Under the pieces are notes generated by a model. It ran no database searches. It saw only the letters and a list, made by a program, of their open reading frames with translations, and was not told where the DNA came from. From a virus: a stretch of DNA of 21,593 nucleotides. This document shows, one piece after another, positions 1,911 through 21,463 of this stretch. Within the stretch, counting starts at the first letter, position 1, and each line of letters starts with the position of its first letter. The DNA lies in IMG/VR virus record IMGVR_UViG_3300031840_000343, positions 1-21,593 of that record. One strand, given 5' to 3'. Made by a program: the position numbers and the translations under genes.

Positions 1911-2162
1911 TTATATCGTATCTGAGTTAGGTGTTGTAAGAGGAGAACGTGCTAATTTGTGTAGTCTGGACATTGTGTTGATATGATTAGCTTCCATAAT
2001 CATCTTGTATCTAAAATTATATTTCTTGATTCTGGTCAGCTCTTTTTGTGAGAGCTTCCCAGTTTCATTATACTTTAGTAATAATTTCTTTATGTCTAGT
2101 TGTACTTTCTTAGTAGCAACATCATAATACTTTACAAGATTAACTATGTATTTGTCTATCAT
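1911..2162 (-). CDS. Hypothetical basic protein (83 aa)
   Basis: An 83-residue, lysine-rich, largely helical protein (for example VKYYDVATKKVQLDIKKLL, then a basic helix with NFRYKMIMEANHIN). No family recognised. It is the last gene of the leftward cassette. A 20-codon ORF immediately upstream stops within its start (ATGA overlap at 2159-2162), which supports the chosen start. The high pI and small size would suit a nucleic-acid-binding or anti-host protein, but that is only inference. Confidence 0.6.
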   Translation of the reverse strand: MIDKYIVNLVKYYDVATKKVQLDIKKLLLKYNETGKLSQKELTRIKKYNFRYKMIMEANHINTMSRLHKLARSPLTTPNSDTI

Positions 2163-2221
2163 GCCTTATTGTATTTGTCTCTCGAACATAGTCGTTCCAT
2201 AGGGTTTCGCAATGCGTACAT
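2159..2221 (-). CDS. Possible microprotein (20 aa)
   Basis: An ATG at 2221 (minus strand) opens a 20-codon frame, MYALRNPMERLCSRDKYNKA, whose TGA overlaps the ATG of the 83-residue gene (ATGA). Four bases upstream of its start is AGTTAT with an ACA element at the same spacing seen before four rightward units. The translational coupling and the upstream element make it plausible as a leader peptide or microprotein; length alone gives no support. Confidence 0.35.
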   Translation of the reverse strand: MYALRNPMERLCSRDKYNKA

Positions 2222-2223
2222 AA

Positions 2224-2248
2224 AGATAACTATTTTTCTGGTATTTGT
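2224..2248 (-). promoter_or_regulatory. ACA-N14-AGTTATC element
   Basis: On the minus strand ACA (2248-2246) is followed after 14 bases by AGTTATC (2231-2225). The ACA to AGTTAT distance is identical to that of the elements at 3046, 10991, 12710 and 14861. It lies directly upstream of the 20-codon ORF and the 83-residue gene, so it may be an internal promoter for the distal part of the leftward cassette. Confidence 0.45.
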
Positions 2249-2975: not shown

Positions 2976-3005
2976 TCTTTATGAATAAATTATACTTGTA
3001 CGTAG

Positions 3006-3036
3006 CAAATATATTGATTTATTTTAATGTACCAAA
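3006..3036 (-). promoter_or_regulatory. Bacteroidetes-type promoter for leftward cassette
   Basis: On the minus strand TTTG (3036-3033) is followed after 19 bases by TATATTTG (3013-3006). This matches the Bacteroidetes primary sigma consensus of TTTG at -33 and TAnnTTTG at -7 with normal spacing. Transcription would start near 2999 and read the 2975-1911 genes. Confidence 0.75.
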
Positions 3037-3045
3037 CTTTTTAAC

Positions 3046-3070
3046 ACAAAAATATTAAATAGAGTTATCT
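3046..3070 (+). promoter_or_regulatory. ACA-N14-AGTTATC element before the tail operon
   Basis: ACA (3046-3048), 14 bases, then AGTTATCT (3063-3070), with the ATG of the tail chaperone gene at 3075. If AGTTAT acts as a -10-like box the transcript would be leaderless or nearly so. The element shares exact spacing with copies at 10991, 12710, 14861 and, on the minus strand, 2248-2224. Confidence 0.5.
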
Positions 3071-3074
3071 TAAT

Positions 3075-3788
3075 ATGAATAGCAATGAATTTAACATAAG
3101 CATACCATCATCTGCAAGAGATATTAAGCTTAGACAATGGCAGTCTTACATTGACGTACACAACAAAAATAAAGATGCTGAAGATACAGACTTCTTAGAG
3201 AAGAAGGTAATAAGCATATTTTGTGATATTAGCATGTCTAATGTAAATAAGATACCATTTAGTATCTATACAGATATATTAGAACACTTAACAACTATCT
3301 TAAACGATAAACCAGATTTAGTACATAGGTTTAAGTTAGAAGGTACAGATGGTGTTGTAGTAGAGTTTGGATTGATACCTAACTTTGATAAAATGAGTTA
3401 TGGAGAGTTTGTAGACTTAGAGAAATACTTGTTTGATGAGAAGAACTTACATAGAGCAATGGCAGTCTTATACAGACCATTAAAATCAAGTCACAAAGAT
3501 AACTATCTCATACATGATTACGAAGGTACAGAGTTCTACGCAGAACTGATGAAAGACACTCCTTTAGACGTTGCATTAGCTTCGAGGGTTTTTTTTTATC
3601 GTTTAGCGACAAAATTAGGGAACTATACAATGGCTTATACACTCAAAGAGTTACAACACAAGGAAGCGAACAAGACAGACAAGCTTTCGGAAAAAAATGG
3701 GGAGACTATCAAGCAATATTTACACTCGCTGGAGAAGATGTCAGAAGAATTGGAGAGGTTACAAGACTTCCAGTACATCAATGTTTAA
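3075..3788 (+). CDS. Tail assembly chaperone, short (0-frame) product
   Basis: A 237-residue protein. Residues about 60-175 look like the tail-chaperone-type family common in Bacteroidetes phages, with an IPNFDKMSYGEFVDLEKYL stretch, an AMAVLYRP motif and PLDVALASRVFFY. By analogy with lambda gpG and gpGT, chaperones of this kind bind the tape measure during tail assembly and are made as short and frameshifted long forms. After the T run at 3589-3597 the 0 frame adds 63 more residues, charged and coiled-coil-like. The gene lies first in the tail operon. Its TAA overlaps an ATG in the -1 frame (TAATG at 3786-3790). Confidence 0.7.
   Translation: MNSNEFNISIPSSARDIKLRQWQSYIDVHNKNKDAEDTDFLEKKVISIFCDISMSNVNKIPFSIYTDILEHLTTILNDKPDLVHRFKLEGTDGVVVEFGLIPNFDKMSYGEFVDLEKYLFDEKNLHRAMAVLYRPLKSSHKDNYLIHDYEGTEFYAELMKDTPLDVALASRVFFYRLATKLGNYTMAYTLKELQHKEANKTDKLSEKNGETIKQYLHSLEKMSEELERLQDFQYINV
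3590..3596 (+). other. Slippery site for -1 frameshift (T run)
   Basis: Nine consecutive T residues at 3589-3597 give the heptamer T TTT TTT in phase with the 0-frame codons (X XXY YYZ form). A -1 slip lets both phenylalanine tRNAs re-pair perfectly. RNA-polymerase slippage on the same run is an alternative mechanism. No clear downstream pseudoknot was seen by eye. Confidence 0.65.
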
Positions 3789-3856
3789 TGTATTTAGAGT
3801 ATATTAAAGAGAAATCAGAAATAGAAGAAAGAATTATTAAATCAAAAATGAAATGA
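3596..3856 (+). CDS. -1 frame extension of the tail assembly chaperone
   Basis: The -1 frame is open from 3518 to the TGA at 3854-3856 and contains no ATG until 3788, so most of it can only be made by frameshifting from the upstream gene. A slip at 3590-3596 yields a 260-residue product: residues 1-174 of the short form plus 86 new residues. The extension contains FGKKWGDYQAIFTLAGEDV and EVTRLPVHQCLMYLEYIKEK, which resemble the second part of Bacteroidetes phage chaperones. Its stop overlaps the ATG of the next gene (ATGA at 3853-3856). The 22-codon ATG-initiated part (3788-3856) might also be translated by coupling. Confidence 0.65.
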   Translation, partial: LSFSDKIRELYNGLYTQRVTTQGSEQDRQAFGKKWGDYQAIFTLAGEDVRRIGEVTRLPVHQCLMYLEYIKEKSEIEERIIKSKMK

Positions 3857-4311
3857 CACACGTTTACGACATATTAGACACTATAAAGGATGAGCTACTA
3901 GCTAGTCCTTCAGTAAATACTGTTACTTATGGAGATATTACAGATGTAGACTTAGATAAGACTACTATGTTTCCACTATCACACATATTAATGGATAGTG
4001 TTACATACGGAGAAAGAGTGGTTTCTTTTAACATACAGATACTTTGTGCAGATATTGTAGATTATAATAAAGATAAATCAGACTTTGAGTTGTTTTATGG
4101 TAATGATAATCTACATGATGTACTTAATACACAGTTTGAAGTCATTAACAGACTTATCTCTAAATTAATGAGAGGAGATTTATTTGAGGAGAATTACCAA
4201 GTTACAACACAGCCAACAGCAACACCATTCAAAGAAAGATTTAGCAATGAATTAGCTGGTTGGTCTGTAGACATGACTATTGATATACCTAACGGGATAA
4301 GTATTTGCTAG
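3853..4311 (+). CDS. Putative tail terminator or completion protein
   Basis: A 152-residue protein resembling a small structural protein conserved in flavobacterial phages. It begins with a helix (VYDILDTIKDELLASP), then strands around VNTVTYGDITDVDLDKTT and FPLSHILMD, and a later RFSNELAGWSVDMTIDIPN. The alpha/beta pattern and a position just before a gp10-like gene fit a tail terminator, which caps the tail tube and joins it to the head. Its start overlaps the frameshift product stop, and its stop abuts the next ATG. The role is inferred from fold-like pattern and neighbours. Confidence 0.5.
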   Translation: MTHVYDILDTIKDELLASPSVNTVTYGDITDVDLDKTTMFPLSHILMDSVTYGERVVSFNIQILCADIVDYNKDKSDFELFYGNDNLHDVLNTQFEVINRLISKLMRGDLFEENYQVTTQPTATPFKERFSNELAGWSVDMTIDIPNGISIC

Positions 4312-4833
4312 ATGGATAAAACTAATCTTAAAAAAGCATTAGAAGACTTAGTAGAAGAATATAAAGCTAAACTTAAAGCACAAGCTAAGATTGATAAGAC
4401 TTACGCTACTGGAAAGTTTGCTAACTCTTTTAAGAGTAAAGTAGTTGAAGATGGTTTTGAAATAACTTCTGATGTAGCATATGCTGGAGCTGTTGATGAT
4501 GGTTTAGATGGTGGTAAAAATAAAATAGCTAATATAAGTGCTATAGCCAAGTGGGCAGAAGCTAAGAATATTAGACCAATATCTAAATTAAGTGGTGGTT
4601 ATAAATTTAGAAGGATGAATACTGATAGTAGAAGTGCTTTTAGGTCTATGGTTTCTGCTATAGCTCGGTCAATCCATAAAAAAGGTACTATAAAGAGATT
4701 TAAGTATAAAGGTAGTGAGATATTCAGTAGAGTATATAACTCCATGCAAGAAAAGATAGGAAGTGAGCTTTCAGAAGCTTTCGCTATAGACTTAAAGAAT
4801 GATATAGCTAAAATAATAAATAAAACACAATAA
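4312..4833 (+). CDS. HK97 gp10-like tail completion protein
   Basis: A 173-residue protein with the typical order of HK97 gp10-like neck proteins: N-terminal charged helix (LEDLVEEYKAKLKAQA), a TGKFANSFKSKV segment, then a strand ITSDVAYAGAVDDGLDGG where a residue-rich loop follows the Y-A-x-x-V-x-x-G pattern, and a helical C-terminus. Such proteins help join head and tail. The ATG follows the previous stop with no gap. The family call is from pattern, not from search. Confidence 0.6.
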   Translation: MDKTNLKKALEDLVEEYKAKLKAQAKIDKTYATGKFANSFKSKVVEDGFEITSDVAYAGAVDDGLDGGKNKIANISAIAKWAEAKNIRPISKLSGGYKFRRMNTDSRSAFRSMVSAIARSIHKKGTIKRFKYKGSEIFSRVYNSMQEKIGSELSEAFAIDLKNDIAKIINKTQ

Positions 4834-4834
4834 A

Positions 4835-6001
4835 ATGGCACTAATATTAACAAGAAGTCCTTACTTAATATCCAATCAAGGATTTACAAATGCTGTAATG
4901 TCGTTAAGTATTCAAGATTATACCTTTGAAACTTATCCAACTACCTTAAAAACATACACTCTAACATTTAGAACTCAAGAATACATTGATATATCTCCTT
5001 TAGTTAGAGATTACTTAATAGATAGAGATATAGTAAGCGTAAGCGTTGTTATAAACGGAACTCCTAGTGGTTACTATACAGCATCACATTACGCTGTAGA
5101 TGGTTATGGTTACTATGAAGAAGGTATGAATAAAGACTTTTCTAGTGAATTATACAATAATGGACTTTATGCTGGTAGTAATAACGTTATACAGAGATAC
5201 ACAAACAAAGCTTTAGATATACCATTGCTAAACCCTATGGTTGGTAGTGCAGGATATGATATTAGTGAGAATGCTACAAACACTCTAATAAACTTTTACA
5301 AAGGAAGTGAGTTATTAAGAACAAAGACTACTAATTTTGGTTATTTCTCAACACCTTTGACTCAACTTACTACAGCAGATAGAATACAGTATATTACAGA
5401 AAGTACTTACGATACTTTTGAAGAGAGAGTAGAAGAAGATGGTGGTACATACGAGACTAATTCTTGTATAGAAGCTTTCTTAAAAGAGTTTCCAGACGAG
5501 TACGCTTATTATCCAGCTACTAGAGTGGAGATAGTGCCACAGTCTGACTACAATAGAGCATACAACCTTACAGTACAAAGGATAGACGAGTGTAAATACA
5601 CACCACATAGAATTAGGTTTACTAATAAATTAGGTGTTAAGGAAAACTTATGGTTCTTTAAGAAGTCTAGTGAATCTATAGCTACAGAAAAGGAATCGTT
5701 TAGAACAAATACTTTTAATGATTACGTTAGTGGAGATTTAAGTAAGCACGTTTACAGAAACTACAACTTAAATGGAAAAGAGTCTATGACTTTAAATACT
5801 GGTTTTGTGCCAGAGTCATTTAAGGAAAACTTTAAACAGCTTATGTTATCTGAAAAGGTATGGCTAGATAAAGATGGTGTAGACTTACCTATAAATATAA
5901 AGAACTCTGAATTGCAATTAAAGAAGTCTGTTAATGACAAGCTAATCAACTACACTATAGACATAGAATTTTCATACGATAAGATAAACAACATATTTTA
6001 A
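4835..6001 (+). CDS. Putative tail-tip (distal-tail-like) protein
   Basis: A 388-residue beta-rich protein of a type conserved in Bacteroidetes phages. The C-terminal half contains HRIRFTNKLGVKENLWFFKK, LNTGFVPESFKENFKQLMLSE and VNDKLINYTIDIEFSYDKIN, which fits a distal tail or baseplate component that connects the tail tube with receptor-binding parts. It is followed at once (TAATG overlap) by the large tail-tip protein, so the two are probably assembled together. No enzymatic motif was seen. The exact role is inferred from position. Confidence 0.55.
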   Translation: MALILTRSPYLISNQGFTNAVMSLSIQDYTFETYPTTLKTYTLTFRTQEYIDISPLVRDYLIDRDIVSVSVVINGTPSGYYTASHYAVDGYGYYEEGMNKDFSSELYNNGLYAGSNNVIQRYTNKALDIPLLNPMVGSAGYDISENATNTLINFYKGSELLRTKTTNFGYFSTPLTQLTTADRIQYITESTYDTFEERVEEDGGTYETNSCIEAFLKEFPDEYAYYPATRVEIVPQSDYNRAYNLTVQRIDECKYTPHRIRFTNKLGVKENLWFFKKSSESIATEKESFRTNTFNDYVSGDLSKHVYRNYNLNGKESMTLNTGFVPESFKENFKQLMLSEKVWLDKDGVDLPINIKNSELQLKKSVNDKLINYTIDIEFSYDKINNIF

Positions 6002-8772
6002 TGAAGCTAGTAACACAATTATACATAGATACATCTGGAGACCCTACTGGAACACCTACTTATGAAAGAGTTGAGTTATTTGACTTTGAAAGTATAGAGT
6101 TAACATCTACTATACAAGAGGTAAGAGATATAGGAAGCGTTTTTACGGACTTTTCTCAGTCTTTTAATGTACCAGCATCACAAAACAATAATAAGGTCTT
6201 AAAACACTATTATCAGACTAATTTAAGCGAGTCTTTTGATGCTAGGATAAAGCAGAGGGGATTAATAACTATAAATGGTATCACTTTTAAAGAAGGTTAT
6301 ATTAGATTGTCAGAAGCTACATTAAAGAATGGTAAGCCATCTACATACAGTTTAACTTTCTTTGGTTCATTAGTAACTTTAAAACAAGCTCTAGGAGATG
6401 ATGAGTTGCAAGACCTTATTGGTTTAGATGATTATAATCACGAGTATGATATAGATACTGTTTATGATGGTTTTATAGATGGCTTAGGGTTGGAAGGACA
6501 GAATATGGTTAAATCCTCTAACAGAGACATTATTTATCCATCTATATCGGCTAGTAATAGATGGTATTATAGCACTGATATAGCTGACTTAGGTGAACAA
6601 GATTTTCAAGGAGATAGAAAGTCTGTTAATATTTGGACTAACGGAACTACTACTTTAGAATACGGAATAAATTATGAGCAACTAAAACCAGCTATAAAAG
6701 TAAAGAATATTATATCAGCTATAGAGAAATATTACGAAGATAAAGGTATTGTCTTTAGTGATGACTTTTTTAATAACGTAGAGTTTAATCAACTTTATTT
6801 ATTACTACATAATTTTAAAGGAACTATATTAAATTCTAGTGAAGCAGAGAAGTCTTTAGATTATGTCGTGGGTACTTCAGAGTCTGATTCTGTTTTTGAA
6901 ACAGCTTCTGGTTATACTGAATTAAGACCTATTGAGGTTAGTTATGGAAATACTCCTTGGGATGGTCTAAATCAAGTTTCTTATGGTTTACAATTAAATG
7001 TAGAAGTAGTATCTCCATCTTCTGGAGCTGAATACACTATAGAACTTTTAGAAGGGGAGACCTTGATAGATAGTAAAGATATAACTGGAGATGGATTTAT
7101 GTACACATTATTAGAATATCCAAATGATGGTGGTCTGGAAGAATTAGAGAGTAAGACTTATGATAATTTAAGATATAGAGTTAAGTCTAGAGGTAATTTA
7201 GTTTCGTTTAATATAACTAGTCTGAGGATAGTTAGAGATTCTGAGTATGGTGTAGGTACAGCAAATCCAGTTTACGAAAGTGTAATTAGTGAATATGACT
7301 TTACTGGAGGTCAGCAAGATATGATTTCTCAAATAAGTATTACAAGGTTTATGCCTAAAATTAAAACATACGATTTCCTTAAAGGACTTTTTAATATGTT
7401 TAATTTAACAGCTTATGTTGATAATGGAGTTATAGTAGTTAAGACTTTAGATAAATTCTATAATGATTCTGGAGACCCTATTGATATATCAGACCAGATA
7501 GATACAAAAGATATAGGTATTAAAAGAATGGACTTGTATAGTGATATTAAGTTTGAATTTAGTACACCTAAAACATTTGGTATTATAAATCAAAACGAAG
7601 TAAATCAAGATGATTTTGGAGATTTAGAATATGAAGGACCTAGAGATAGTTTAATCTTTGATGGAACTAAATATAATATAAAATTACCATTTGAGAAGTT
7701 GTTTTTTGATAGACTTAGCGATGAGAATACTGGAAACTTAACTGCATTTGGAAATGGTTGGTTAGTAGATAAAGACCAAAACGAAACTATTACAGCACCA
7801 GTATTATTTTTTAATAAAAATACATCTGTAGATTTGGAAGAAAAAATTGGTTTTAAGAATAAATCATTTGCAATAACATCATACAACAGACCTAGTAATT
7901 CTTCTAATAATGAGTTATCTACAATACATTTTGGAGAAGAGCAAGATGAATATACTGGAAATCGTATAACAAATAGTTTGTTTCAATTACACTACAGTAA
8001 GTACATAGCTAATATCTTCAATCAAAACTCTAGGATATACACTATAAAAGCTTTTCTGAATTTAAATACAATATTCTCATACGAGATGAATGACAATTTT
8101 GTTATAAATAATAAAGAGTTTTTTATCAATAGCATTAGAACAGACTTATCTACTGGTGCTACAGACTTAGAGTTAATACCAGCTTACGAAACAGAAGAAG
8201 TTTTACCACCAGACACAGAAGCTCCTACAGTACCTACTAATTTAACATTTGTTAGTGCTACAGACAGTAAGATACAGTTTAGTTGGACTGAGAGTACAGA
8301 TAATATAGCTGTTACTGGATATGAAGTATGGGTAGATGGTTCTTTTGAGATTAGTATAGGTATTGGTTCTTTATACACATTAGGTGGTTTAGACCCTACT
8401 ACTGATTATGATATTCAGTTATTAGCTTTTGATGCACAGAATAATAAATCTGCATTGTGTACTGCTGTAGAAATGACTACTACTGCTGTTCCAGATAATA
8501 TTCCACCAACAACTCCTACTAACCTAAGACAAGGTATAGTTACATCAAGTAGTATAGGTCTTGCTTGGGATGCTTCTACAGATAATGTAGGTGTTTCTCT
8601 TTATAAAGTTTATGTAGATGGAGTGTTTAATCAAGACGTTAATCATCCAAGCACAAATGCTAATGTTACTGGATTATCTAGTCAAACATCTTATAGTTTT
8701 TACGTAAAGGCTGTAGATGCTAATTTAAACGAATCGCCAATATCAAACATTGTTAATATAAGTACATTATGA
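6001..8772 (+). CDS. Tail-tip protein with two fibronectin type III domains
   Basis: A 923-residue protein. Residues 1-135 hold a conserved strand-rich head (VFTDFSQSFNVPASQNN), followed by a long baseplate-hub-like body. Residues about 737-828 and 830-923 are tandem fibronectin type III domains: each opens with a proline-rich linker of the APTVPTNL / PPTTPTNL type, has an STDN-x-x-V motif, a VDG turn and a Y-x-x-x-x-A-x-D end strand. Fn3 domains on phage tails are thought to bind carbohydrate or extend the tip. Its TGA overlaps the next ATG (ATGA). A tail hub or fibre role is inferred from size, Fn3 content and place before the tape measure. Confidence 0.65.
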   Translation: MKLVTQLYIDTSGDPTGTPTYERVELFDFESIELTSTIQEVRDIGSVFTDFSQSFNVPASQNNNKVLKHYYQTNLSESFDARIKQRGLITINGITFKEGYIRLSEATLKNGKPSTYSLTFFGSLVTLKQALGDDELQDLIGLDDYNHEYDIDTVYDGFIDGLGLEGQNMVKSSNRDIIYPSISASNRWYYSTDIADLGEQDFQGDRKSVNIWTNGTTTLEYGINYEQLKPAIKVKNIISAIEKYYEDKGIVFSDDFFNNVEFNQLYLLLHNFKGTILNSSEAEKSLDYVVGTSESDSVFETASGYTELRPIEVSYGNTPWDGLNQVSYGLQLNVEVVSPSSGAEYTIELLEGETLIDSKDITGDGFMYTLLEYPNDGGLEELESKTYDNLRYRVKSRGNLVSFNITSLRIVRDSEYGVGTANPVYESVISEYDFTGGQQDMISQISITRFMPKIKTYDFLKGLFNMFNLTAYVDNGVIVVKTLDKFYNDSGDPIDISDQIDTKDIGIKRMDLYSDIKFEFSTPKTFGIINQNEVNQDDFGDLEYEGPRDSLIFDGTKYNIKLPFEKLFFDRLSDENTGNLTAFGNGWLVDKDQNETITAPVLFFNKNTSVDLEEKIGFKNKSFAITSYNRPSNSSNNELSTIHFGEEQDEYTGNRITNSLFQLHYSKYIANIFNQNSRIYTIKAFLNLNTIFSYEMNDNFVINNKEFFINSIRTDLSTGATDLELIPAYETEEVLPPDTEAPTVPTNLTFVSATDSKIQFSWTESTDNIAVTGYEVWVDGSFEISIGIGSLYTLGGLDPTTDYDIQLLAFDAQNNKSALCTAVEMTTTAVPDNIPPTTPTNLRQGIVTSSSIGLAWDASTDNVGVSLYKVYVDGVFNQDVNHPSTNANVTGLSSQTSYSFYVKAVDANLNESPISNIVNISTL

Positions 8773-8921
8773 TAAGAGAAACATTAGAATTACTAAAAAG
8801 TAGAGACTGGTTAATAGACGATAAAGAAATTAACATAGCTAAAGGCATGTATGAAATGCCTTCTACATTCACAGAATTAAAAATAAACAGGAAAAGAAAA
8901 AAACTAACAAATGGCAGATAG
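8769..8921 (+). CDS. Small conserved-position protein (50 aa)
   Basis: A 50-residue, charged ORF (MIRETLELLKSRDWLIDD at the start, RKRKK near the end). Its ATG overlaps the stop of the Fn3 protein (ATGA) and its stop lies inside the start of the tape measure gene, overlapping it by 11 bases in another frame. The double overlap supports translation. No family recognised; its place between hub and tape measure suggests a small tail assembly factor. Confidence 0.55.
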   Translation: MIRETLELLKSRDWLIDDKEINIAKGMYEMPSTFTELKINRKRKKLTNGR

Positions 8922-10989
8922 TAAAGAACAAATATTATTAGAATTAAAGATAAAGACTGATTTAGCTAGTGCTGCTTTAGAAAAAACTAATGTAGCTATA
9001 AAGAAAACTATACAATCTTTTAAGAAATTAAAAGAAGGAAGTTTAGATTATCAACAAGCTCAAGCAAAGTTAGCTAGTCTTCAAGCGAATTATGCTAAAC
9101 AATCATTAAATTACGCTAAGGCATTACAGAATCAGATAGGTGCTGGGAAGACTGGTTTAAATGGTGTTACTGGTGCTACAGGAGGTGCAACTGCTGCAAC
9201 ACTTGAATTAGGTAGGGTTATATCTGATATGCCTTATGGTATTCGTGGTGTTGCGAATAACTTATCTCAATTTGCTTCTCAGTTTAGCTTTATGTCAAAT
9301 AAAGTAGATGAAACTACTGGTAAGGTTGTTGGATTTAATGGTGCTATAAAAGGTTTAGGTAAAGCTATAAAAGCTAACGCAATTTTGCTAGCTATTCAAG
9401 CAATTATATCTGCTTTTGATTATTTTTCTGGAGGTGCTAAGAAAGCAGAAAAATCTACAGAGGATTTAACTAAATCTCTTAGAGAACAAGTTGAAGTATT
9501 AAATAGTTATAAAACAGCACTAGATGAATCTAATCTGTCTTTAGATGAAAGAGAAGGTTTAATAAAAGCTGTAACAATAAAAAGCAAAGAGTTTGCGAAA
9601 ATAATAGAGGAATCTAAAGGTGGTCTAACATCAGAAACAGAAGCTTTAAATAAGTTTGTAGCTAAAAAAGATAAGGAATTAGAGGTAAAAACTAAAATAG
9701 CTAATTTAGACAAAGCAAATGCTGTAATAAGAGAAGAAGAAATAAAGGGATTAAATAAAGTAAATGAGGAAATATCTCTATACGAAAAGATTGTATCGAA
9801 TACAGGTCTTGGTAATGAAGCAATGTTACTTAGGTTAGAACAATTAAGAAAAGTAAAGACAGCGTATGAAGACCAAAAAATAATACTATCACAGTTAAAT
9901 AAGTTAATAGAAGATAATCCAGAAAACAGCAATAAATTTAAAGAAGGTACTGTTGCTTGGTATAAGAAACAAATATCGGATAAAGAAAAGATAAGAGATA
10001 AGACAGCAGATAATACAAAAGAATACAAGAATCAAACAAAAGAAGTTACAAGACTTAGGAATGAATTAAAAAAACTTATAGGGGATGCAGAGGATAGAGA
10101 GAAAGCTAAAGGACTTGATAAGTTAAAACCTGTAGGTATAGGAGAAACTAAAAAGAAGATGCAAGAAATATTTAGTATTGTATCTGAAGGCTTAGGTGTA
10201 GACTTAAAAGACTCTCCTTTATCCATTGCTCCAGAATTAAATTTTGATTTATCAGAAGGCACTAAAAAAGGTATTGATGATTACAATAAAATAGTTCGTA
10301 AAACCATAACTGAAAAGTTTAATGCTGAAGATATAGCTGACAGTTTAGACGCTTTTAAAGAAGCTTTGTCAACTATAAGTGATTTTGCAGACGCTCAATT
10401 TGAGAGAGAATTAACTACAGAACAAAATAAAACAACAGCATTAAATCAAGAATTAAATAACAGACTTCTTAATGAGAATCTAGCTAAAGATGAAAGAATA
10501 AAAATACAGAATGAAATAGCACAAAATGATGAGAAGTTAAGAGTAAAGCAAAACGCTATAAAAAAGAAGCAATTTAACACACAGAAAGCATTTAATTTAT
10601 CTATGGCTTTAGTAGATACAGCTAGTTCAGCTTTAAAGGCTTATGGTTCTCAATTAATTATAGGAGACCCTACATCTATAATTAGAGCTAAAGTAGCTGC
10701 TGGTATAGCTACTGCTGTAGGTTTAGCTCAAGTAGCTACAATAGCCTCTCAAAAGTTTCAAGCAGACTCTGCGTCAACACCTATTAGAACATCTAGTGGT
10801 GGTGGAGCTGGTGGTGGTGTAGGAGATAGAAGTTTTGACTTCAATCTAGTAGGTGCTACACAAGGTAATCAAGTGTTAGATGCTATACAAGGTCAGTTTA
10901 ATAAACCAGTACAAGCTTATGTAGTATCAAGAGACATGACAAACCAACAACAATTAGATGCAAACATTAAAAACCAAGCATCATTTTAA
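8911..10989 (+). CDS. Tail tape measure protein
   Basis: A 692-residue protein that sets tail length and fills the tail tube before DNA ejection. It has long alanine- and lysine-rich helices throughout (coiled-coil-like at about 230-390 and 480-565), a hydrophobic segment at about 153-172 (ANAILLAIQAIISAFDYF) and a second at about 593-617. The end contains a Gly-rich linker (GGGAGGGVGDRS) and a closing motif near VQAYVVSRDMTNQQQ that I recognise from Bacteroidetes tape measures. Using a common rule of about 1.5 angstrom per residue, the tail would be near 100 nm. It is the last gene of the tail operon. Confidence 0.85.
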   Translation: MADSKEQILLELKIKTDLASAALEKTNVAIKKTIQSFKKLKEGSLDYQQAQAKLASLQANYAKQSLNYAKALQNQIGAGKTGLNGVTGATGGATAATLELGRVISDMPYGIRGVANNLSQFASQFSFMSNKVDETTGKVVGFNGAIKGLGKAIKANAILLAIQAIISAFDYFSGGAKKAEKSTEDLTKSLREQVEVLNSYKTALDESNLSLDEREGLIKAVTIKSKEFAKIIEESKGGLTSETEALNKFVAKKDKELEVKTKIANLDKANAVIREEEIKGLNKVNEEISLYEKIVSNTGLGNEAMLLRLEQLRKVKTAYEDQKIILSQLNKLIEDNPENSNKFKEGTVAWYKKQISDKEKIRDKTADNTKEYKNQTKEVTRLRNELKKLIGDAEDREKAKGLDKLKPVGIGETKKKMQEIFSIVSEGLGVDLKDSPLSIAPELNFDLSEGTKKGIDDYNKIVRKTITEKFNAEDIADSLDAFKEALSTISDFADAQFERELTTEQNKTTALNQELNNRLLNENLAKDERIKIQNEIAQNDEKLRVKQNAIKKKQFNTQKAFNLSMALVDTASSALKAYGSQLIIGDPTSIIRAKVAAGIATAVGLAQVATIASQKFQADSASTPIRTSSGGGAGGGVGDRSFDFNLVGATQGNQVLDAIQGQFNKPVQAYVVSRDMTNQQQLDANIKNQASF

Positions 10990-10990
10990 A

Positions 10991-11015
10991 ACAAAATAGG
11001 AATAATTAGTTATCA
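10991..11015 (+). promoter_or_regulatory. ACA-N14-AGTTATC element before the head operon
   Basis: ACA (10991-10993) lies 14 bases before AGTTATCA (11008-11015), 18 bases before the protease ATG. The upstream half, AAAACAAAATA (10988-10998), recurs exactly with the same offset at 14858-14868. It sits in the only 40-base gap after the tail genes, so a promoter is likely. Confidence 0.55.
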
Positions 11016-11033
11016 AATTATAACACAATAGGT

Positions 11034-11924
11034 ATGAAAGATTTAGATGTAATAGAATTATTTATAGATGAAACTAAGGAAGATGATGGTATAGAAGCTA
11101 TCTCTTTAGTAGAGTTTCCAGCAATAGAGGAGAACTTTGTTGCATTAAGTAAACATAAAGTAGAGTTTAAAACAGTAGATAGTGAAAAGAGAATTATCGT
11201 TGGTTTAGCTTTAGTTCCAGATAAGCTTATTTATAGACGTAGAGGAGATTATGAGTATAATATAGTATTCTCTAAGGAAACTGTAAGAAAAGCGTCTGAG
11301 CTATACTTAAAACGTCTTAAACTAAACAATGCTACATTAGAACATGATGACCAAATGACAAGTGGTGTATCTGTAATAGAGTCTTGGATAGTAGAAAATC
11401 CAGAACAAGATAAAACAGCTTTATACAACTTAAATGCAGTAGAGGGTGCTTGGGCAGTAACTATGAAAATAGATAATGATAAAGTATGGGAAGAAGTTAA
11501 AGAAGGAAAGTACTTAGGATTATCTATAGAAGGTATGTTTAGTGATAGCGTAGAAGATGTAGAGGAGATAGAGGCATCTAACGTACTAGAAGAGATAAAG
11601 AGACTATTATCTGAGGAGGAATTAGCTTCTTATAGTGATTATCCACAATCAGCAACAAACAATGCTAAGAGAGCTTTAGAATGGAAGAAAAAGAATGGTA
11701 CTTCTTGTGGGACGTCAGTAGGATGGGCAAGAGCGAATCAATTAGCGAACAGAGAACCACTAAGTCGTTCTACGATAGCAAGAATGGCATCGTTCAAGAG
11801 ACATCAACAAAACAAAGACGTACCTTATTCAGAAGGTTGTGGAGGCATTATGTGGGATGCTTGGGGTGGAAGTGCAGGTGTAAACTGGGCGATAAGCAAG
11901 TTAAAGCAAATAGATAAAGAATAG
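11034..11924 (+). CDS. Prohead protease, XkdF-like, with C-terminal domain
   Basis: A 296-residue protein. Residues about 20-170 resemble XkdF-type phage serine proteases that process the scaffold and capsid: AISLVEFPAI near the start, ATLEHDD with candidate catalytic His104, and LGLSIEGMF with candidate Ser164. Residues 202-293 form a separate domain (SATNNAKRALEWKKKNGTSC, later MASFKRHQQN and GGIMWDAWGG) that I have seen appended to phage head proteins; its role is not known. The position just upstream of scaffold and capsid genes fits. The start follows the 10991 element and a leader much like that of the scaffold gene. Confidence 0.75.
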   Translation: MKDLDVIELFIDETKEDDGIEAISLVEFPAIEENFVALSKHKVEFKTVDSEKRIIVGLALVPDKLIYRRRGDYEYNIVFSKETVRKASELYLKRLKLNNATLEHDDQMTSGVSVIESWIVENPEQDKTALYNLNAVEGAWAVTMKIDNDKVWEEVKEGKYLGLSIEGMFSDSVEDVEEIEASNVLEEIKRLLSEEELASYSDYPQSATNNAKRALEWKKKNGTSCGTSVGWARANQLANREPLSRSTIARMASFKRHQQNKDVPYSEGCGGIMWDAWGGSAGVNWAISKLKQIDKE

Positions 11925-11925
11925 T

Positions 11926-12555
11926 ATGTCTACAATAAAAAACACATCTTATAGAGTTAAGGCTGATGTAAACTCAGATGAAGAAAGATTATCATACAAT
12001 ATAGAGGAAGGTGCTTTTGTTACTACCTCATCTGGTATATGGTCTGTTCATAATGGAGAGTGGGTAAAGATACACCCTAAAGGTGGAACTGGTAGTGGTC
12101 TTGGATGGGCAAGATACGATGATACTTTTTGGACTTCTAGTAATAAACTACCATTACTACAAGATACAACTACTGTTATAAATAACAATGGAGGTAATAT
12201 CGTACTAAGTGATAATTCTATAAACTATTACGATAAAAACTCTTATAAAATTTTAGCAGATGCTGAGAACGAACTTTATATGGCTACTGTTGTATTTAAG
12301 TATTCTTCCCCTAATGCTAATCAAACATTTATAAGACTACAGTTGCAAGGTGGTAACGGAACTCCTTATGAAAGATTAGGTTCTGATATATCTCTACCTA
12401 AAGGCAATGATGTTACTCACGAATACCATCAAGTATTTCAATATTATGTAGATTCTGATTTTGTATCTAATGGTTCTCAGTGGGTTGCAACATCTCATGG
12501 AGGAGGTTCTCAGATATGGGATATAATATTCTTTATAAGTAAAATACAAAACTAA
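11926..12555 (+). CDS. Putative head decoration or fibre protein
   Basis: A 209-residue beta-rich protein. Residues 1-50 (SYRVKADVNSDEERLSYN, GIWSVHNGEWVKIHP) resemble a phage virion-attachment region, and the remainder looks like a jelly-roll sandwich with many Gly, Ser and aromatic residues. It starts one base after the protease stop, so it is translated with it. Its place between protease and scaffold suggests a capsid decoration or head fibre, but this is inference from context. Confidence 0.45.
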   Translation: MSTIKNTSYRVKADVNSDEERLSYNIEEGAFVTTSSGIWSVHNGEWVKIHPKGGTGSGLGWARYDDTFWTSSNKLPLLQDTTTVINNNGGNIVLSDNSINYYDKNSYKILADAENELYMATVVFKYSSPNANQTFIRLQLQGGNGTPYERLGSDISLPKGNDVTHEYHQVFQYYVDSDFVSNGSQWVATSHGGGSQIWDIIFFISKIQN

Positions 12556-12556
12556 T

Positions 12557-12697
12557 ATGAAAGCAGTATACTGTAAATGTAGAAACACATATTCTATAAA
12601 GTGTTCTAAAGATAAGAAGAATAAGAATTGTAAAGCACCTTACTATTGGGAACAAGGTATAGGTAGTATTTATAAAGAAGATACTGAAGATAATTAA
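12557..12697 (+). CDS. Small Cys-containing basic protein (46 aa)
   Basis: A 46-residue ORF that starts one base after the previous stop. It has four cysteines (C6, C8, C16, C25: CKCRNTYSIKC and NKNCKAPYYW) among many lysines, which could bind one zinc. It then turns acidic (KEDTEDN). No family recognised. The tight spacing in the head operon supports it as a real gene; the function is unknown. Confidence 0.5.
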   Translation: MKAVYCKCRNTYSIKCSKDKKNKNCKAPYYWEQGIGSIYKEDTEDN

Positions 12698-12709
12698 TTG
12701 AAAAATACG

Positions 12710-12734
12710 ACAGTAAAATAGTAAATAGTTATAT
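12710..12734 (+). promoter_or_regulatory. ACA-N14-AGTTAT element before scaffold and capsid
   Basis: ACA (12710-12712), 14 bases, then AGTTATAT (12727-12734), with the scaffold ATG 18 bases later, the same distance as before the protease gene. It fills a 55-base gap and could drive high expression of scaffold and capsid. Confidence 0.5.
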
Positions 12735-12752
12735 TAATATAAACCAATAAGT

Positions 12753-13220
12753 ATGAAAGCAACAGAAATCCTTGATAACGTTAAAGAGCTTTTAAACCTA
12801 TCTAAAGAAGAGGTTAAAGTTGAAGACGTTGTAATTGAAGATTCAGTAGAATTATCTACAGAAGAGGTTAAGGAGGAAGTAGAAGAGACTGTACTTGCTG
12901 AAGAAGAGGTTGTAGAAGCACCTAAAGAAGAAATCGTTGAAGACGAAGTTTCTATGGAGTATGCTACATCTGAAGATTTATCAGCATTAAAAGCAGAGAT
13001 ACTTTCTATGATTAACGCATTAATCGAAGATAAACCAATGGGAGAAGTAAAAGAAGTTCCAGAGGAGTTATCAAAACAAGAAGAAGTTGAATTATCTGAG
13101 GAGGTAGAAGAAGTAGTACATTCTCCAGAGAATTCAATCGAAGTAAAGAAAAATTTATTATCAAAACCAAACAAATCTATGTCAACTCAAGAAAGAGTGA
13201 ATAGAATGTTATTTAACTAA
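12753..13220 (+). CDS. Capsid scaffolding protein (putative)
   Basis: A 155-residue, extremely acidic protein with dense Glu-Glu-Val repeats (for example EEVEETVLAEEEVVEA), a central helix (SEDLSALKAEILSMINALIE) and a basic, capsid-contact-like C-terminus (NPK-type, ending TQERVNRMLFN). Size, charge, predicted helicity and position directly before the major capsid gene all fit a scaffold, which guides shell assembly and is then cleaved or lost. No direct sequence family is claimed. Confidence 0.65.
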   Translation: MKATEILDNVKELLNLSKEEVKVEDVVIEDSVELSTEEVKEEVEETVLAEEEVVEAPKEEIVEDEVSMEYATSEDLSALKAEILSMINALIEDKPMGEVKEVPEELSKQEEVELSEEVEEVVHSPENSIEVKKNLLSKPNKSMSTQERVNRMLFN

Positions 13221-13231
13221 AATTAAGAAAA

Positions 13232-14182
13232 ATGGCTACTACTACAAGCATTACTACAACTTACGCAGGACAGGCAGCAGGAGAATACATCTCAGCAGCT
13301 TTATTAGCTGGAAACACTATCGCAAATGGTGGATTAACAGTAAGACCTAACGTAAAATTCAAAGAAGTTGTTAAAAGATTGGAATTAGATGGTATCGTAA
13401 AAGATGGTACTTGTGATTTCGCTGACACTTCAACATTAACATTAACTGAGAGAATCTTAGAGCCTAAAGAGCTACAAGTAAACTTAGAGTTATGTAAAAA
13501 AGATTTCCGTTCTGATTGGGAAGCAATCCAAATGGGATATTCTGCATTTGATAACTTACCTCCATCATTCCAAGCTTATTTAATTTCTTATGTAGCTGGA
13601 AAAGTTGCACAAAAGAATGAGCAAAACATTTGGGGTGGAGATGATGCAAACGAAGGAGAATTTGATGGATTCGCTTCTTTATTAGCTGTTGATGCTGATT
13701 TACCAGCAGGACAAGAAATTGCTGGAACTACTATTACTGCTGCTAACGTAATTGATGAATTAGGAAAAGTTGCTGATGCAATTCCTTCTGCATTATACGG
13801 AAGAGAAGACTTATACATCTATGTATCTCAAAATGTATTTAGAGCATACAAAAGAAGTTTAGGTGGATTCCAATCTGGAGGACAAGGAGCAAATGGTGTT
13901 AACGGACAAGGTAACAACCAAGACATTAATATCTTATACTTTGATGGTGTAAAAATATTTATGGCTAATGGTTTAGCTGATAACACAATGGTTGCTACTA
14001 CTAAAGATAATTTACACTTCGGTACGGGACTTTTATCAGACCACCAAGAAGTAAAAATCTTAGATATGGCTGACCTAGATGGTTCGCAAAATGTAAGAGT
14101 TATTATGAGATTTACTGCTGGTGTTCAGTATGGTGTAATCGAAGATATTGTAACTTACGGAATTACAAATTCAGCTAACTAA
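13232..14182 (+). CDS. Major capsid protein, HK97-fold type
   Basis: A 316-residue protein that starts 11 bases after the scaffold gene. It fits an HK97-fold shell protein of Bacteroidetes phages: an N-arm (TTTYAGQAAGEYISAALLAG), a strand-rich P-domain, DLYIYVSQNVFRAYKRSL, a Gly/Asn-rich loop (QSGGQGANGVNGQGNN), DGVKIFMANGL, and a final strand VIMRFTAGVQYGVIEDIV. Codons ending in C (ATC, TTC, AAC) look more frequent than in neighbours, as for highly expressed genes. A strong terminator follows. Confidence 0.85.
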   Translation: MATTTSITTTYAGQAAGEYISAALLAGNTIANGGLTVRPNVKFKEVVKRLELDGIVKDGTCDFADTSTLTLTERILEPKELQVNLELCKKDFRSDWEAIQMGYSAFDNLPPSFQAYLISYVAGKVAQKNEQNIWGGDDANEGEFDGFASLLAVDADLPAGQEIAGTTITAANVIDELGKVADAIPSALYGREDLYIYVSQNVFRAYKRSLGGFQSGGQGANGVNGQGNNQDINILYFDGVKIFMANGLADNTMVATTKDNLHFGTGLLSDHQEVKILDMADLDGSQNVRVIMRFTAGVQYGVIEDIVTYGITNSAN

Positions 14183-14204
14183 GAATTAGCACTTAAATTA
14201 ATAT

Positions 14205-14238
14205 AAAAAGGGTGGGTGGTTTCCATCTGCCCTTTTTT
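14205..14238 (+). terminator. Intrinsic terminator after the capsid gene
   Basis: A stem of about 15-18 pairs, including several G-T wobbles: AAAAAGGG (14205-14212) and on to 14219, a TTT loop (14220-14222), then CCATCTGCCC (14223-14232) and a run of six T (14233-14238). Strong rho-independent terminator; partial read-through would feed the tail tube gene, which has no element of its own. Confidence 0.9.
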
Positions 14239-14262
14239 AATAACTAATAAAAATATAATAAT

Positions 14263-14796
14263 ATGGCTTGTGATTTTATTACAACAGGTAGAGAAGAACC
14301 TTGTAAAGATTCAGTAGGTGGTTTAAAAGCTGTTTACTTTGTAGACTTTGGGGATTTTGATGTAGCTAATGTTGTTTACGATGCTGATGGCACTACAATT
14401 ACAGATATAGGTTCTGCAGATGTACCAGCATACAAATACGAAATAAGAGGTGCTTCTACTTATACGGAGAACATTCAATCTAGTAGAGAGAATGGAACAA
14501 CTGCTTTTGAGCAAGTGTTAGAGTTGACACTTAAAAAATTAACTAAAGAAGACCATAAAGCAATTAAACTATTGTCTTTTGGTAGACCACATATTTTAAT
14601 AGAAGATAATAACGGAAACGTATTCTTATCTGGATTAGAATTTGGTTGTGATGTTACTGGTGGTACAGTTGTTACTGGTGGTGCAATGGCTGATATGAGT
14701 GGATACACTTTAAGTTTTACTGGAATGGAGAAAGCTCCAGCTAACTTTATAAGTGATGGAGATATTGGTGGTGCTGGATTTTTAGTTACTCCATAG
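14263..14796 (+). CDS. Major tail tube protein (putative)
   Basis: A 177-residue beta-rich protein. It begins MACDFITTGREEPCKDSVGG, has LEFGCDVTGGTVVTGGAMADMSGY and ends FTGMEKAPANFISD. Size, the GGTVxTGG strand and the place between the capsid and a structural gene fit a siphovirus tail tube subunit. Terminators on both sides suggest tightly set expression, as expected for an abundant virion protein. No other function is suggested by the sequence. Confidence 0.65.
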   Translation: MACDFITTGREEPCKDSVGGLKAVYFVDFGDFDVANVVYDADGTTITDIGSADVPAYKYEIRGASTYTENIQSSRENGTTAFEQVLELTLKKLTKEDHKAIKLLSFGRPHILIEDNNGNVFLSGLEFGCDVTGGTVVTGGAMADMSGYTLSFTGMEKAPANFISDGDIGGAGFLVTP

Positions 14797-14823
14797 TTTT
14801 TAATTGATATTCATAATTAATTG

Positions 14824-14849
14824 ACCCTGCCTTTTTGGTGGGGTTTTTT
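14824..14849 (+). terminator. Intrinsic terminator after the tail tube gene
   Basis: ACCCTGCC (14824-14831), TTTTT loop, GGTGGGGT (14837-14844), then T to 14849. Two of eight pairs are G-T wobbles. It lies 28 bases after the tail tube stop. It overlaps the TTG that could start the next ORF, which is one reason to place the next start at 14890. Confidence 0.85.
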
Positions 14850-14860
14850 ATTAAATAAAA

Positions 14861-14885
14861 ACAAAATAATATTTTTTAGTTATCA
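14861..14885 (+). promoter_or_regulatory. ACA-N14-AGTTATC element before portal module
   Basis: ACA (14861-14863), 14 bases, then AGTTATCA (14878-14885), with ATG at 14890. AAAACAAAATA at 14858-14868 matches 10988-10998 exactly. It sits directly after a terminator, where a new promoter is needed, which supports a promoter role. Confidence 0.55.
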
Positions 14886-14889
14886 TAGT

Positions 14890-15312
14890 ATGATAGTTTT
14901 ATTACCAAACACAACATTTCAGACAATAAGTATTATGCCTAGAGAGAATAATACTGACGGAACTATATCTATAAATCTAAGAAGAGATGGAGATAGTCTT
15001 ACTGAAGTTATAACAGACATAAAGTCTAGTGTTACAGATAACTTTGTAGAGCTAGGTTTTTCTTCTACTATTTTAGAGGAAGATTCTACTTATTACTTAG
15101 AAATAACTAAGAGTGGTAGTTTATGGTATAGGGATAAAGTTTATAGCACTTTCCAACAATACGAAAAAGACTTTATTTGGAGTGGATATGATGCTACATT
15201 TTCTGAAGCTATGGCTTCTTTTGGTGGGGATTTAGATGAGAAACATAAAATAGGTAATGGAAAACTGTATAAGACTTACGATTCAGTAGACGATAATACA
15301 TACATAATATAA
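14890..15312 (+). CDS. Conserved phage structural protein (140 aa)
   Basis: A 140-residue beta-rich protein of a kind I associate with Bacteroidetes phages (MIVLLPNTTFQTISIMPREN at the start; later SGSLWYRDKVYSTFQQYEKD). ATG 14890 was chosen because the longer frame from TTG 14821 would run through the terminator and needs a weak start. Its stop overlaps the portal start (TAATG). The exact role is unknown; a tail or neck component is plausible from its neighbours. Confidence 0.5.
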   Translation: MIVLLPNTTFQTISIMPRENNTDGTISINLRRDGDSLTEVITDIKSSVTDNFVELGFSSTILEEDSTYYLEITKSGSLWYRDKVYSTFQQYEKDFIWSGYDATFSEAMASFGGDLDEKHKIGNGKLYKTYDSVDDNTYII

Positions 15313-17060
15313 TGAGTAAGAAAAAAGAATATAAGGATAGTATTAGAATTGTTAATATGTCCTCTTACGAGATACCAGAGATAAAAGAAGTTCACAATAA
15401 AGAGTGGGTTACTTTTGGTATGAATAATGATTATTTTGATAAACTAATAGAAAGATACTTAGATAGTCCTACTAATGGTAGGTGTGTTAATGGTATTGTT
15501 GATATGGTGTATGGTAGAGGATTAGAGTCTACTAATTCTGATTTATTTCCAGAGGACTATATTAAAATGAAAAAGTTACTTAGACCTAGAGAAGTTAAAA
15601 GACTTGTTAATGATTACAAGTTATTAGGTCAAGGTGCTATGCAATTAACATACAACAAAGCTAAGACAAAAATACTAAAAATATCTCACTTTCCTATGGA
15701 GACGTTAAGAGCAGAGAAAGCTACTAACGGAAAGATAAAAGCATACTACTACCATCCAAGTTGGAAAGATTGTAAGAACTCAGATAATCCTAAAAGAATA
15801 CCTACATTTGGCAATGGTACTAAATCTCAAGTAAACGAGCTTTATGTATTTAAACCTTATAGAAGTGGTTTTTATTATTACGCTACAGTAGATTATCAAG
15901 CTTGTTTACAATATGCACAATTAGAGTCAGAGGTATCTAACTATCATATATCAAATATAGAAAACGGATTACAGCCTAGCTTATTTGTAAACTTTAATAA
16001 TGGTATTCCAAATGAGGAAACACAAACTATTATAGAGAGTAAGATAAATGATAAGTTTAGTGGGAGTTCTAATAGTGGGAAGGCAATTATAGCATTCAAC
16101 GAATCAGCAGAGACTAAAGCTGATATAGAAGCAATACATTTACCAGATGCACACGCACAATATCAATTCTTATCTGATGAAGCTAGAGAAAAGATAATGT
16201 TAGGACACGGAATTGTATCTCCAATATTATTAGGTATAAAAGACAATACTGGTTTTGGTAACAATGCAGAAGAATTACGTACAGCATCAGTACTAATGGA
16301 TAACGTTATTATTAGACCATTACAAGATGGTATTATATACGGATTAACAGAATTATTAGAGTTTAACAAGATATACCAAGACCTATACTTTGTAACATTA
16401 CAACCTATTGAATTTACAGAGTTAGACAACATATCAACTAAAATTAGAAGAGAAGAAGAAACTGGAGAGAAATTATCAGCAGAATCTAGTGATGACTTTT
16501 CAGATGATGAAGGAGATGATATGATAGACCAATTAGAAGGCTTAGGGGAGGTTTTAAGCGATGATTGGGAACTTATCCATAGTGAAGTATATGAAGAGGA
16601 AAAAGAGTCTGTTAAAATGGCTGAAATCAAGTATTCTGATAAATCATCAAAAGAAGACAATGATGTATATAAAGTTAGGTATGCTTATATGCCAGTAAGA
16701 AAGTCTCCTAATAGTAGAAACTTCTGTAAAAAAATGGAGGTACTTACTGATAGAAAGATAGTGTTTAGAAAGGAAGATATTAATATGATGTCTTTTAGAG
16801 GGGTTAATAAAGATTTAGGTCATAATAAACGTAATTATAGTTTACTAAAATATAAAGGAGGAAAAAATTGTCATCATTATTGGGAATTACAAGTTTATAA
16901 GAAGTCTAGTGGTAGAAAGGTAGACTCTGATAATGCTTATGAGAAAGGGTTAAAAGAACCATCTAATCCGTCAGAAATGGGAGAGAGAATGATAGATAGA
17001 CCAGACAATGGTGCTTACCCAAATATATTAAGTAGAATAAGAAAATTAATAGGACAATAA
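15312..17060 (+). CDS. Portal protein with Cys/His-rich C-terminal extension
   Basis: A 582-residue protein. Residues 1-390 resemble portal proteins: WVTFGMNNDYFDKLIERYLDSPTNG, LGQGAMQLTYNKA, IVSPILLGIKDNTGFGNNAEEL and a final helix into LQPIEFTELDNI. Twelve portal copies form the DNA channel at one capsid vertex. Residues about 391-420 are a very acidic linker (DDFSDDEGDDMID). Residues about 450-582 form an extra domain with SRNFCKKMEV (Cys472), FRKEDINMMSFRGVN and KGGKNCHHYW (Cys520, His521, His522), a possible metal site; similar tails occur on phage head proteins. The start overlaps the previous stop and the stop overlaps the adaptor start. Confidence 0.75.
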   Translation: MSKKKEYKDSIRIVNMSSYEIPEIKEVHNKEWVTFGMNNDYFDKLIERYLDSPTNGRCVNGIVDMVYGRGLESTNSDLFPEDYIKMKKLLRPREVKRLVNDYKLLGQGAMQLTYNKAKTKILKISHFPMETLRAEKATNGKIKAYYYHPSWKDCKNSDNPKRIPTFGNGTKSQVNELYVFKPYRSGFYYYATVDYQACLQYAQLESEVSNYHISNIENGLQPSLFVNFNNGIPNEETQTIIESKINDKFSGSSNSGKAIIAFNESAETKADIEAIHLPDAHAQYQFLSDEAREKIMLGHGIVSPILLGIKDNTGFGNNAEELRTASVLMDNVIIRPLQDGIIYGLTELLEFNKIYQDLYFVTLQPIEFTELDNISTKIRREEETGEKLSAESSDDFSDDEGDDMIDQLEGLGEVLSDDWELIHSEVYEEEKESVKMAEIKYSDKSSKEDNDVYKVRYAYMPVRKSPNSRNFCKKMEVLTDRKIVFRKEDINMMSFRGVNKDLGHNKRNYSLLKYKGGKNCHHYWELQVYKKSSGRKVDSDNAYEKGLKEPSNPSEMGERMIDRPDNGAYPNILSRIRKLIGQ

Positions 17061-17572: not shown

Positions 17573-17685
17573 TGAAACAAAAAAAACGAACATATAAAGT
17601 AAAAAAGGTTAACATTATAAAGCTAGATGCTTTTTATAAAAAGGTAAATAAAAACAAAAATAGCACAGGAAACAAGAGAATTTAA
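17572..17685 (+). CDS. Small basic protein (37 aa)
   Basis: A 37-residue, very lysine-rich ORF (MKQKKRTYKVKKVNIIK) whose ATG overlaps the adaptor stop (TAATG). Net charge is strongly positive, which would suit nucleic-acid or membrane contact. No function recognised. It ends five bases before the next gene. Confidence 0.45.
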   Translation: MKQKKRTYKVKKVNIIKLDAFYKKVNKNKNSTGNKRI

Positions 17686-21083: not shown

Positions 21084-21463
21084 AACTAACAAAGAACTTT
21101 AGTAGGTCAGAATTTGATTGCAGTTGTGGTTGTGATATGCCTAAAGAAGTACTTAATAACGTACAGAAAGTAGCTAACCAATTACAAGCATTAAGAAACA
21201 TTGTAGGTAAATCTATAACTGTTAATAGTGGTTATAGGTGTCCAGAATACAATACTAAAGCTAGAGGTGTTAAAACAAGTCAACATATTTTAGGTAAAGC
21301 TTCTGATATTACTATTAAGGATATGACACCAGATGATGTTGCACACTTAATAGAACAAATGATTGATAATGGAGATATGTTACAAGGTGGATTAGGCAGA
21401 TACAACACATTTACACATTACGATATAAGAAAGACTAAAGCACGTTGGAATTTTAAAAACTAA
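21080..21463 (+). CDS. Endolysin, peptidase M15 family
   Basis: A 127-residue protein matching the Peptidase_M15_3 domain found in phage and host cell-wall enzymes. It has SGYRCPEYN (residues 50-58), SQHILGKASDI (67-77) with predicted zinc ligands His69 and Asp76, and THYDIR (112-117) with His113. Such enzymes cleave D-Ala or L-Ala-D-Glu bonds in peptidoglycan. A Cys cluster at 14-18 (CSCGC) is also seen in related enzymes. No signal peptide, so release depends on the upstream holin-like gene. It closes the late operon. Confidence 0.85.
   Translation: MKLTKNFSRSEFDCSCGCDMPKEVLNNVQKVANQLQALRNIVGKSITVNSGYRCPEYNTKARGVKTSQHILGKASDITIKDMTPDDVAHLIEQMIDNGDMLQGGLGRYNTFTHYDIRKTKARWNFKN

Follow-up and report, generated by a model that had tools for sequence, protein, structure and literature searches.

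Which factor reads the bipartite element ACA-N14-AGTTAT that recurs before gene units in the virus record IMGVR_UViG_3300031840_000343 of IMG/VR, and what does the element do there? The whole 21,593-base record was analysed and is called the window below. It is a phage fragment without the terminase region, and it shares about 33% identity in the capsid and portal proteins with the Nonlabens (Persicivirga) phages P12024S and P12024L. We estimate at roughly 85% that the element is a bipartite late promoter, which would be read by host RNA polymerase with a phage-encoded sigma factor resembling the extracytoplasmic function (ECF) type. Our confidence that it represents a real promoter class is higher still.

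The element has exactly five matches in the window, at 3046, 10991, 12710 and 14861 on the plus strand and at 2248-2226 on the minus strand, just where an initial annotation made from the letters had placed them. Only 0.75 (sd 0.91) were expected, and none of 100 shuffles reached five. As that annotation stated, all five sites lie in gaps, each upstream of an open reading frame (ORF) on the same strand. The 11-base identity AAAACAAAATA that it reported for the copies at 10988 and 14858 is present in the sequence, but ACA itself is part of it. When a matrix of 40 columns, trained on related loci with the window left out, was used for scoring, its four top places in the window were 3046 (26.9 bits), 12710 (26.5 bits), 14861 (25.8 bits) and 10991 (21.3 bits). 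Two further places, 17590 and minus-strand 2248, scored 17.1 and 16.6 bits, while the best of 20 shuffles reached 17.0 and the mean of the shuffle maxima was 12.9. As neither is better than the best shuffle, four window sites are solid and the fifth, on the minus strand, is weak when taken alone.

The top-scoring element, ACA-N14-AGTTAT-CTTAATAT (3046..3076, plus strand), stands before the first gene of the tail-side unit (3075..3788, plus strand), whose sole PHROG match, phrog_32199, has no known function. Its start codon is 12 nucleotides (nt) from the first base of AGTTAT, and an element of this kind precedes the orthologous gene in loci L006, L022 and L044. The element at 10991..11021 (plus strand) precedes the head maturation protease gene (11034..11924, plus strand; PF14550, Peptidase_S78_2) with a leader of about 20 nt, and many protease orthologues are preceded by ACA-N-[AC]GTTA[TAC] elements. 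With a similar leader of about 20 nt, the element at 12710..12740 (plus strand) precedes an acidic putative scaffold gene (12753..13220, plus strand) and the major capsid protein gene that follows it (13232..14182, plus strand; assigned by position and by relatives). It is conserved in close relatives of this capsid gene. The element at 14861..14891 (plus strand), also with its start codon 12 nt from the first base of AGTTAT, stands before the gene opening the portal unit (14890-15312, plus strand), in which the portal gene (15312..17060, plus strand; phrog_33693, E 4.1e-96) is second. An intrinsic-terminator-like hairpin with a T run (14823..14845, plus strand) lies directly upstream, in line with the earlier description of a structural gene after a terminator, and many relatives keep this order of terminator and element. 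Among the gene names proposed earlier, the protease is borne out by its domain; 'tail chaperone' and 'scaffold' rest on position, and the putative scaffold gene gave no PHROG match at all.

The weaker minus-strand element (2218..2248; 16.6 bits, below the best of 20 shuffles) precedes a 20-codon ORF. Some support for the 2248 site comes from outside the window, as record G004 also has a minus-strand element (4391-4417), albeit with no start codon close by. The ATG of the 20-codon ORF (window 2160-2248) follows 4 nt on, and its stop overlaps the start of an 83-residue ORF (ATGA), an arrangement resembling a leader peptide. A doubtful sixth site (17590..17620, plus strand; 17.1 bits) lies in a tiny ORF (17575-17685) before the gene at 17691-18950. 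Sites similar to it are found in L015 and L041, and they may be conserved for coding reasons.

A search with the capsid protein gave at least 597 confirmed related loci, of which 80 were taken. In these loci together with the window, 73 ACA/AGTTAT pairs were found at a spacing of 14, whereas every other spacing between 8 and 20 gave 14-39 and the reversed-pattern control at 14 gave 23. Minor peaks occurred at spacings of 11 and 17 (33 and 39 pairs), which we suspect are due to neighbouring ACA triplets. Columns outside the search seed were conserved as well in 25 thinned sites (56 unique), namely an A-rich stretch before ACA, and C, T, A, T and A after GTTA. The full element is AAAACA-N14-[AC]GTTAT-nTTAnTAT, larger than first noted. 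In the upstream stretches of orthologues it stands before scaffold, protease, tail-side and portal-unit genes, so the motif search of relatives proposed in the initial annotation finds it again before orthologous late genes.

An independent sample of 13 loci was fetched by the sigma gene described below (at least 73% identical) and not by the element. Here a spacing of 14 before AGTTAT yielded 10 unique intergenic sites and 1 coding site, and the remaining spacings between 11 and 18 yielded 0-2 intergenic sites each. The element is intergenic and directional. All ten listed sites have a start codon within 21 nt. A de novo search with 5-mers recovered the elements of P12024S and of the B lineage (capsid relatives L047-L085 and pieces of long records), but missed those of the A lineage in sigma-side loci. 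We think that this miss arose from the small number of late units in those loci and from the removal of upstream stretches that were nearly identical.

The cultured Nonlabens phage P12024S carries seven AAAACA-N15-17-CGTTA-N6-8-ATG elements, with 0.01 expected, and an annotated coding sequence lies downstream of each (179, 3031, 5412, 21280, 23961, 25201 and 26802). For the B lineage, ACA-N15-TATT[GA]TA was found at 27 intergenic sites, compared with 0-5 at other spacings. Recurrence by chance in an AT-rich genome could appeal to the minus-strand site at 2248, which alone scores no better than shuffles. Against it are the five sites where 0.75 were expected in the window, the seven where 0.01 were expected in P12024S, and the conservation across many contigs; the probability of chance is close to negligible. 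For the element as a class, chance is refuted by the sigma-fetched loci and by the P12024S counts.

The Bacteroidota primary-sigma promoter is TTTG/TAnnTTTG (PMC6847099), and these phages also carry it, ahead of early-type genes. In the phage records TTG-N20-TAnnTTTG occurs at 15 intergenic and 6 coding sites, N19 at 8 and 11, N21 at 5 and 9, and the remaining spacings at 0-4 intergenic sites. One of these sites (18827 of G001) was counted twice because L087 and L088 overlap by 2 kb. In none of the five window elements are the two blocks correctly placed, with TAnnTTTG 19-21 nt after TTG or TTTG. A single host-type site of the window is intergenic (3005..3035, minus strand); it would serve the minus-strand genes and forms a back-to-back pair with the late element at 3046. 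L091, of record G004, shows the same pair (host-type 7217 minus, late 7227 plus). P12024S has a host-type site at 19609, ahead of a run of genes (29-33) with the sigma gene among them, and a late element follows at 21250. The host-type promoters therefore form a separate class before other, early-type genes of the same records, and the distinction drawn in the initial annotation holds. A search for sigma-70 consensus promoters gave 90 matches, fewer than the 106.1 in shuffles, and was not informative.

This separation bears on the idea that the host primary sigma factor (sigma-ABfr) reads the element with a phage activator replacing the -33 contact. MotA/AsiA of phage T4 is an activator of this type for sigma-70. 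In the window lineage GTTATCTTAG contains TATCTTAG, which is partly like TAnnTTTG, and T-12 and A-11 have the geometry reported for Flavobacterium johnsoniae (PMC6847099). However, neither P12024S (CGTTAnTATA) nor the B lineage (TATTGTAT) retains the likeness, true TAnnTTTG promoters form their own class in the same genomes, and the long records carry a sigma gene. We consider this arrangement unlikely. The narrower assignment of TATCTTAG as a host TAnnTTTG -10 block was rejected, as it fails in P12024S and the B lineage. With regard to a T7-like single-subunit polymerase, PF00940 matched in 0 of 9 records, a search in which the control genomes also had no match, and the complete record of P12024S, with 59 features, has no such annotation.

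Sigma genes are present in the related phages. Gene 33 of the P12024S record is annotated 'Sigma-70 region 2'. Of 21 records, 7 had a PF04542 match at E <= 0.001 (3 of the 21 over the curated cut-off), and 6 of the 7 proteins matched phrog_1740, 'RNA polymerase sigma factor', at E <= 0.01. A profile built from 32 such proteins and run on 22 records found the gene in 10 of them, including all 8 of those at least 26 kb long. The proteins have about 160-190 residues, with one open frame of 212. Over positions of about 4-162 the profile matched the solved ECF chains SigE and SigL (E 0.0006-0.0013) and, weakly, the SigW chain 5wuq (0.021). An AlphaFold model has N- and C-terminal helical parts joined by a low-confidence linker, with helices at 96-171. 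All 10 Foldseek matches at E <= 0.001 were ECF sigma chains, and in VIA-align ECF and primary sigma chains were tied at Z 8.1-9.1. Because of this tie, the fold says sigma and the ECF class rests on length and the sequence profile. The protein is thus most likely, as a prediction from sequence, a small two-domain ECF-like sigma factor. A 58 kb record, IMGVR_UViG_3300046167_000289 (L133, L137), has two sigma genes of the family, both 49% identical to the query, which perhaps reflects two joined phages or an assembly repeat.

The relation between sigma lineage and promoter code was compared at one site, upstream of the small first gene of the terminase unit; this gene is found in 59 of 80 sigma loci and the element in 55. 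Among 12 loci with a sigma at least 73% identical, the -10 block begins with A at a spacing of 14 in 8 and with A at 16 in 1 (the script's assignment, kept unchanged), and 3 have none. All 7 loci with 56-59% identical sigma have C with 15. At 45-50% identity (40 loci), A with 15 was found in 38, C with 15 in 1 and none in 1. Other codes are CGTTA at 15-17 in P12024S and TATTGTA at 15 in the B lineage. In five comparisons of A and B sigma proteins, region 4.2 was 37-47% identical and region 2.3-2.4 only 12-23%, which fits. L109, L110, L111 and L153 hold a second form of the terminase-unit gene with a different upstream stretch lacking the element, and L109 holds both copies, with and without it.

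These variants also speak to the possibility that an alternative sigma factor of the host reads the element. Flavobacteria do have many ECF sigma factors. Nevertheless, 15 genomes related to the Polaribacter metagenome-assembled genome (MAG) G021, which carries a capsid relative and is the presumed host, showed no excess of the element (26 pattern matches against 52 reversed), while 8 phage records gave 16 pattern matches against 0 for the reversed control. As the element variants also track the phage sigma lineage, we regard a host alternative sigma as very unlikely. A flavophage capsid gene, 58% identical, was further seen in L187 (CP070803.1, a Woesearchaeota MAG chromosome); it ends in an N run before unlike sequence and is probably a scaffold misjoin.

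The distance to the start codon gave a further line of evidence. At intergenic sites an ATG lies exactly 12 nt from the first -10 base in 27 of 59 cases in the window lineage, 12 of 15 in a further lineage, 15 of 24 in the B lineage and 6 of 7 in P12024S, as against 2 of 26 host-type sites. In a second window-lineage group the ATG is 23-31 nt away. According to PMC6847099, the -7 element of F. johnsoniae has its first base at -12, and leaders exceed 10 nt in 87% of its predicted transcripts. If the phage -10 block shares this geometry, late mRNAs would begin at or next to the AUG. Near-leaderless late mRNAs, starting at or within about 2 bases of the AUG, are thus predicted.

Such closeness to the start codon might instead mark an RNA processing or translation signal, or an operator for a repressor or activator, the last of which the initial annotation had offered beside a late promoter. 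The element is often right at the start codon, where F. johnsoniae prefers adenines (PMC6847099). But it is not palindromic and is nearly always co-oriented with the next gene, often at a fixed distance from its start codon; the block TTAnTAT persists at sites whose start codon is 20-28 nt off; and the spacing and two-block form suit a promoter, with one copy following a terminator. Such signals appear scarcely plausible, and the operator is disfavoured. By comparison, a late promoter needing a phage factor, the other proposal of the initial annotation, is supported by the directional element before late units in relatives, by the sigma genes of related records, and by a spacing and -10 block that differ by sigma lineage.

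Several observations weigh against a late promoter read with a phage sigma factor. The PF04542 cut-off is passed by 3 of the 7 sigma proteins, and no Pfam family of region 4 is over its cut-off in any of them. The AlphaFold model is middling (predicted local distance difference test, pLDDT, 74.3; predicted template modelling score, pTM, 0.40). The sigma profile finds no gene in the window's own record (G000), the fragment without the terminase region, so the sigma gene is known from related records and not from the window. The terminase-unit gene has no element upstream in 4 of 59 loci. The agreement of spacer and -10 block with sigma lineage is an association along the phage phylogeny rather than a tally of independent changes. 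Moreover, P12024S and G002 share only 17% identity in region 4.2 despite a similar -35; because of this misfit, the comparison of sigma regions across lineages is not used as evidence.

On the favoured reading of a late promoter recognised through a phage sigma, host-type TTTG/TAnnTTTG promoters would drive the early genes, among them the operon that contains the sigma gene. The phage sigma would then redirect RNA polymerase to the -35-like AAAACA and the -10-like [AC]GTTAT upstream of the units for terminase, tail, protease, scaffold-capsid and portal. Where the ATG is exactly 12 nt from the first -10 base, which is so at about half of the sites, the mRNA would begin at or within about 2 bases of the AUG. 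We infer the sigma binding, the timing and these transcript starts from the sequence features above.

Promoter systems of this kind have been described in other phages. The nearest is that of Salmonella phage 7-11, whose sigma factor SaPh711_gp47 reads bipartite late promoters, GTAAtg-16-aCTA (PMC8948821), and its closest homologues include a Winogradskyella sigma-24. Phage 7-11, as described there, also has a sigma with region 4, host polymerase for early genes and a promoter for each late unit. The phages studied here share with it a bipartite element of fixed spacing, several copies before late units, and a sigma encoded in related records. They differ in the consensus (AAAACA-N14/16-[AC]GTTA), in Bacteroidota hosts with TTTG/TAnnTTTG early promoters, in a fixed distance of 12 nt that often lies between start codon and -10 block, and in being known from sequence alone. 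As far as sequence tells, the system works as that of 7-11 in another host phylum and with another code. In phiEco32, gp36 likewise diverts host polymerase to late genes, but it lacks region 4 and reads a single-element middle/late promoter, tAATGTAtA (PMC8948821), whereas here there are two promoter blocks and a sigma with a predicted C-terminal helix-turn-helix part.

The SigW promoter of Bacillus subtilis is TGAAAC-N16-CGTA. The element resembles it in a -35 with AAAC, a -10 starting CGT and a similar spacing; unlike SigW, the sigma here is phage-borne, and A or TATT replaces C or CGTT in several lineages.

Other features of the window lie outside these late units. A GP88-family gene (PF17338, E 2.1e-37) is found at 395-1012 within an early-type region. 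A noncoding block (1560-1912) separates the early-type plus-strand genes from those on the minus strand and is conserved at about 65-84% in the related loci L160, L137, L156, L154, L150, L094, L091, L106/L089, L108 and L118/L087; the L091 copy has a 50-nt direct repeat. The block could be an origin or packaging site. An Rfam scan of the window, this block included, gave no match at E <= 0.5.

The timing of late genes in tailed Bacteroidota phages is little described. In searches of an open-access library we found nothing on late promoters or a working phage sigma of flavophages. The accessible part of the phage sigma survey PMC9429907 contains no word beginning Bacteroid or Flavobacter, and a word search of the flavophage papers PMC4615864 and PMC8776804 gave no instance of 'promoter'; 'sigma' occurs there solely as the name of a supplier. 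The present analysis offers a testable rule, comprising a sigma gene, a promoter code and predicted transcript starts, for a large group of flavobacterial phages that is very common in marine data (at least 600 capsid-pattern matches) and has a cultured member in P12024S. The variants of sigma and promoter in this group form a natural series, and the element can mark late units in metagenomic contigs without a sigma gene. More tentatively, with a chance of roughly one in three, these phages may switch the host from leadered to near-leaderless transcripts, with sigma and promoters diverging together (spacer 14/15/16; -10 AGTTAT/CGTTA/TATTGTAT), so that co-occurring marine phages would have mutually different late promoter codes. 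If true, late translation would bypass the A-rich leader contacts used by flavobacterial ribosomes.

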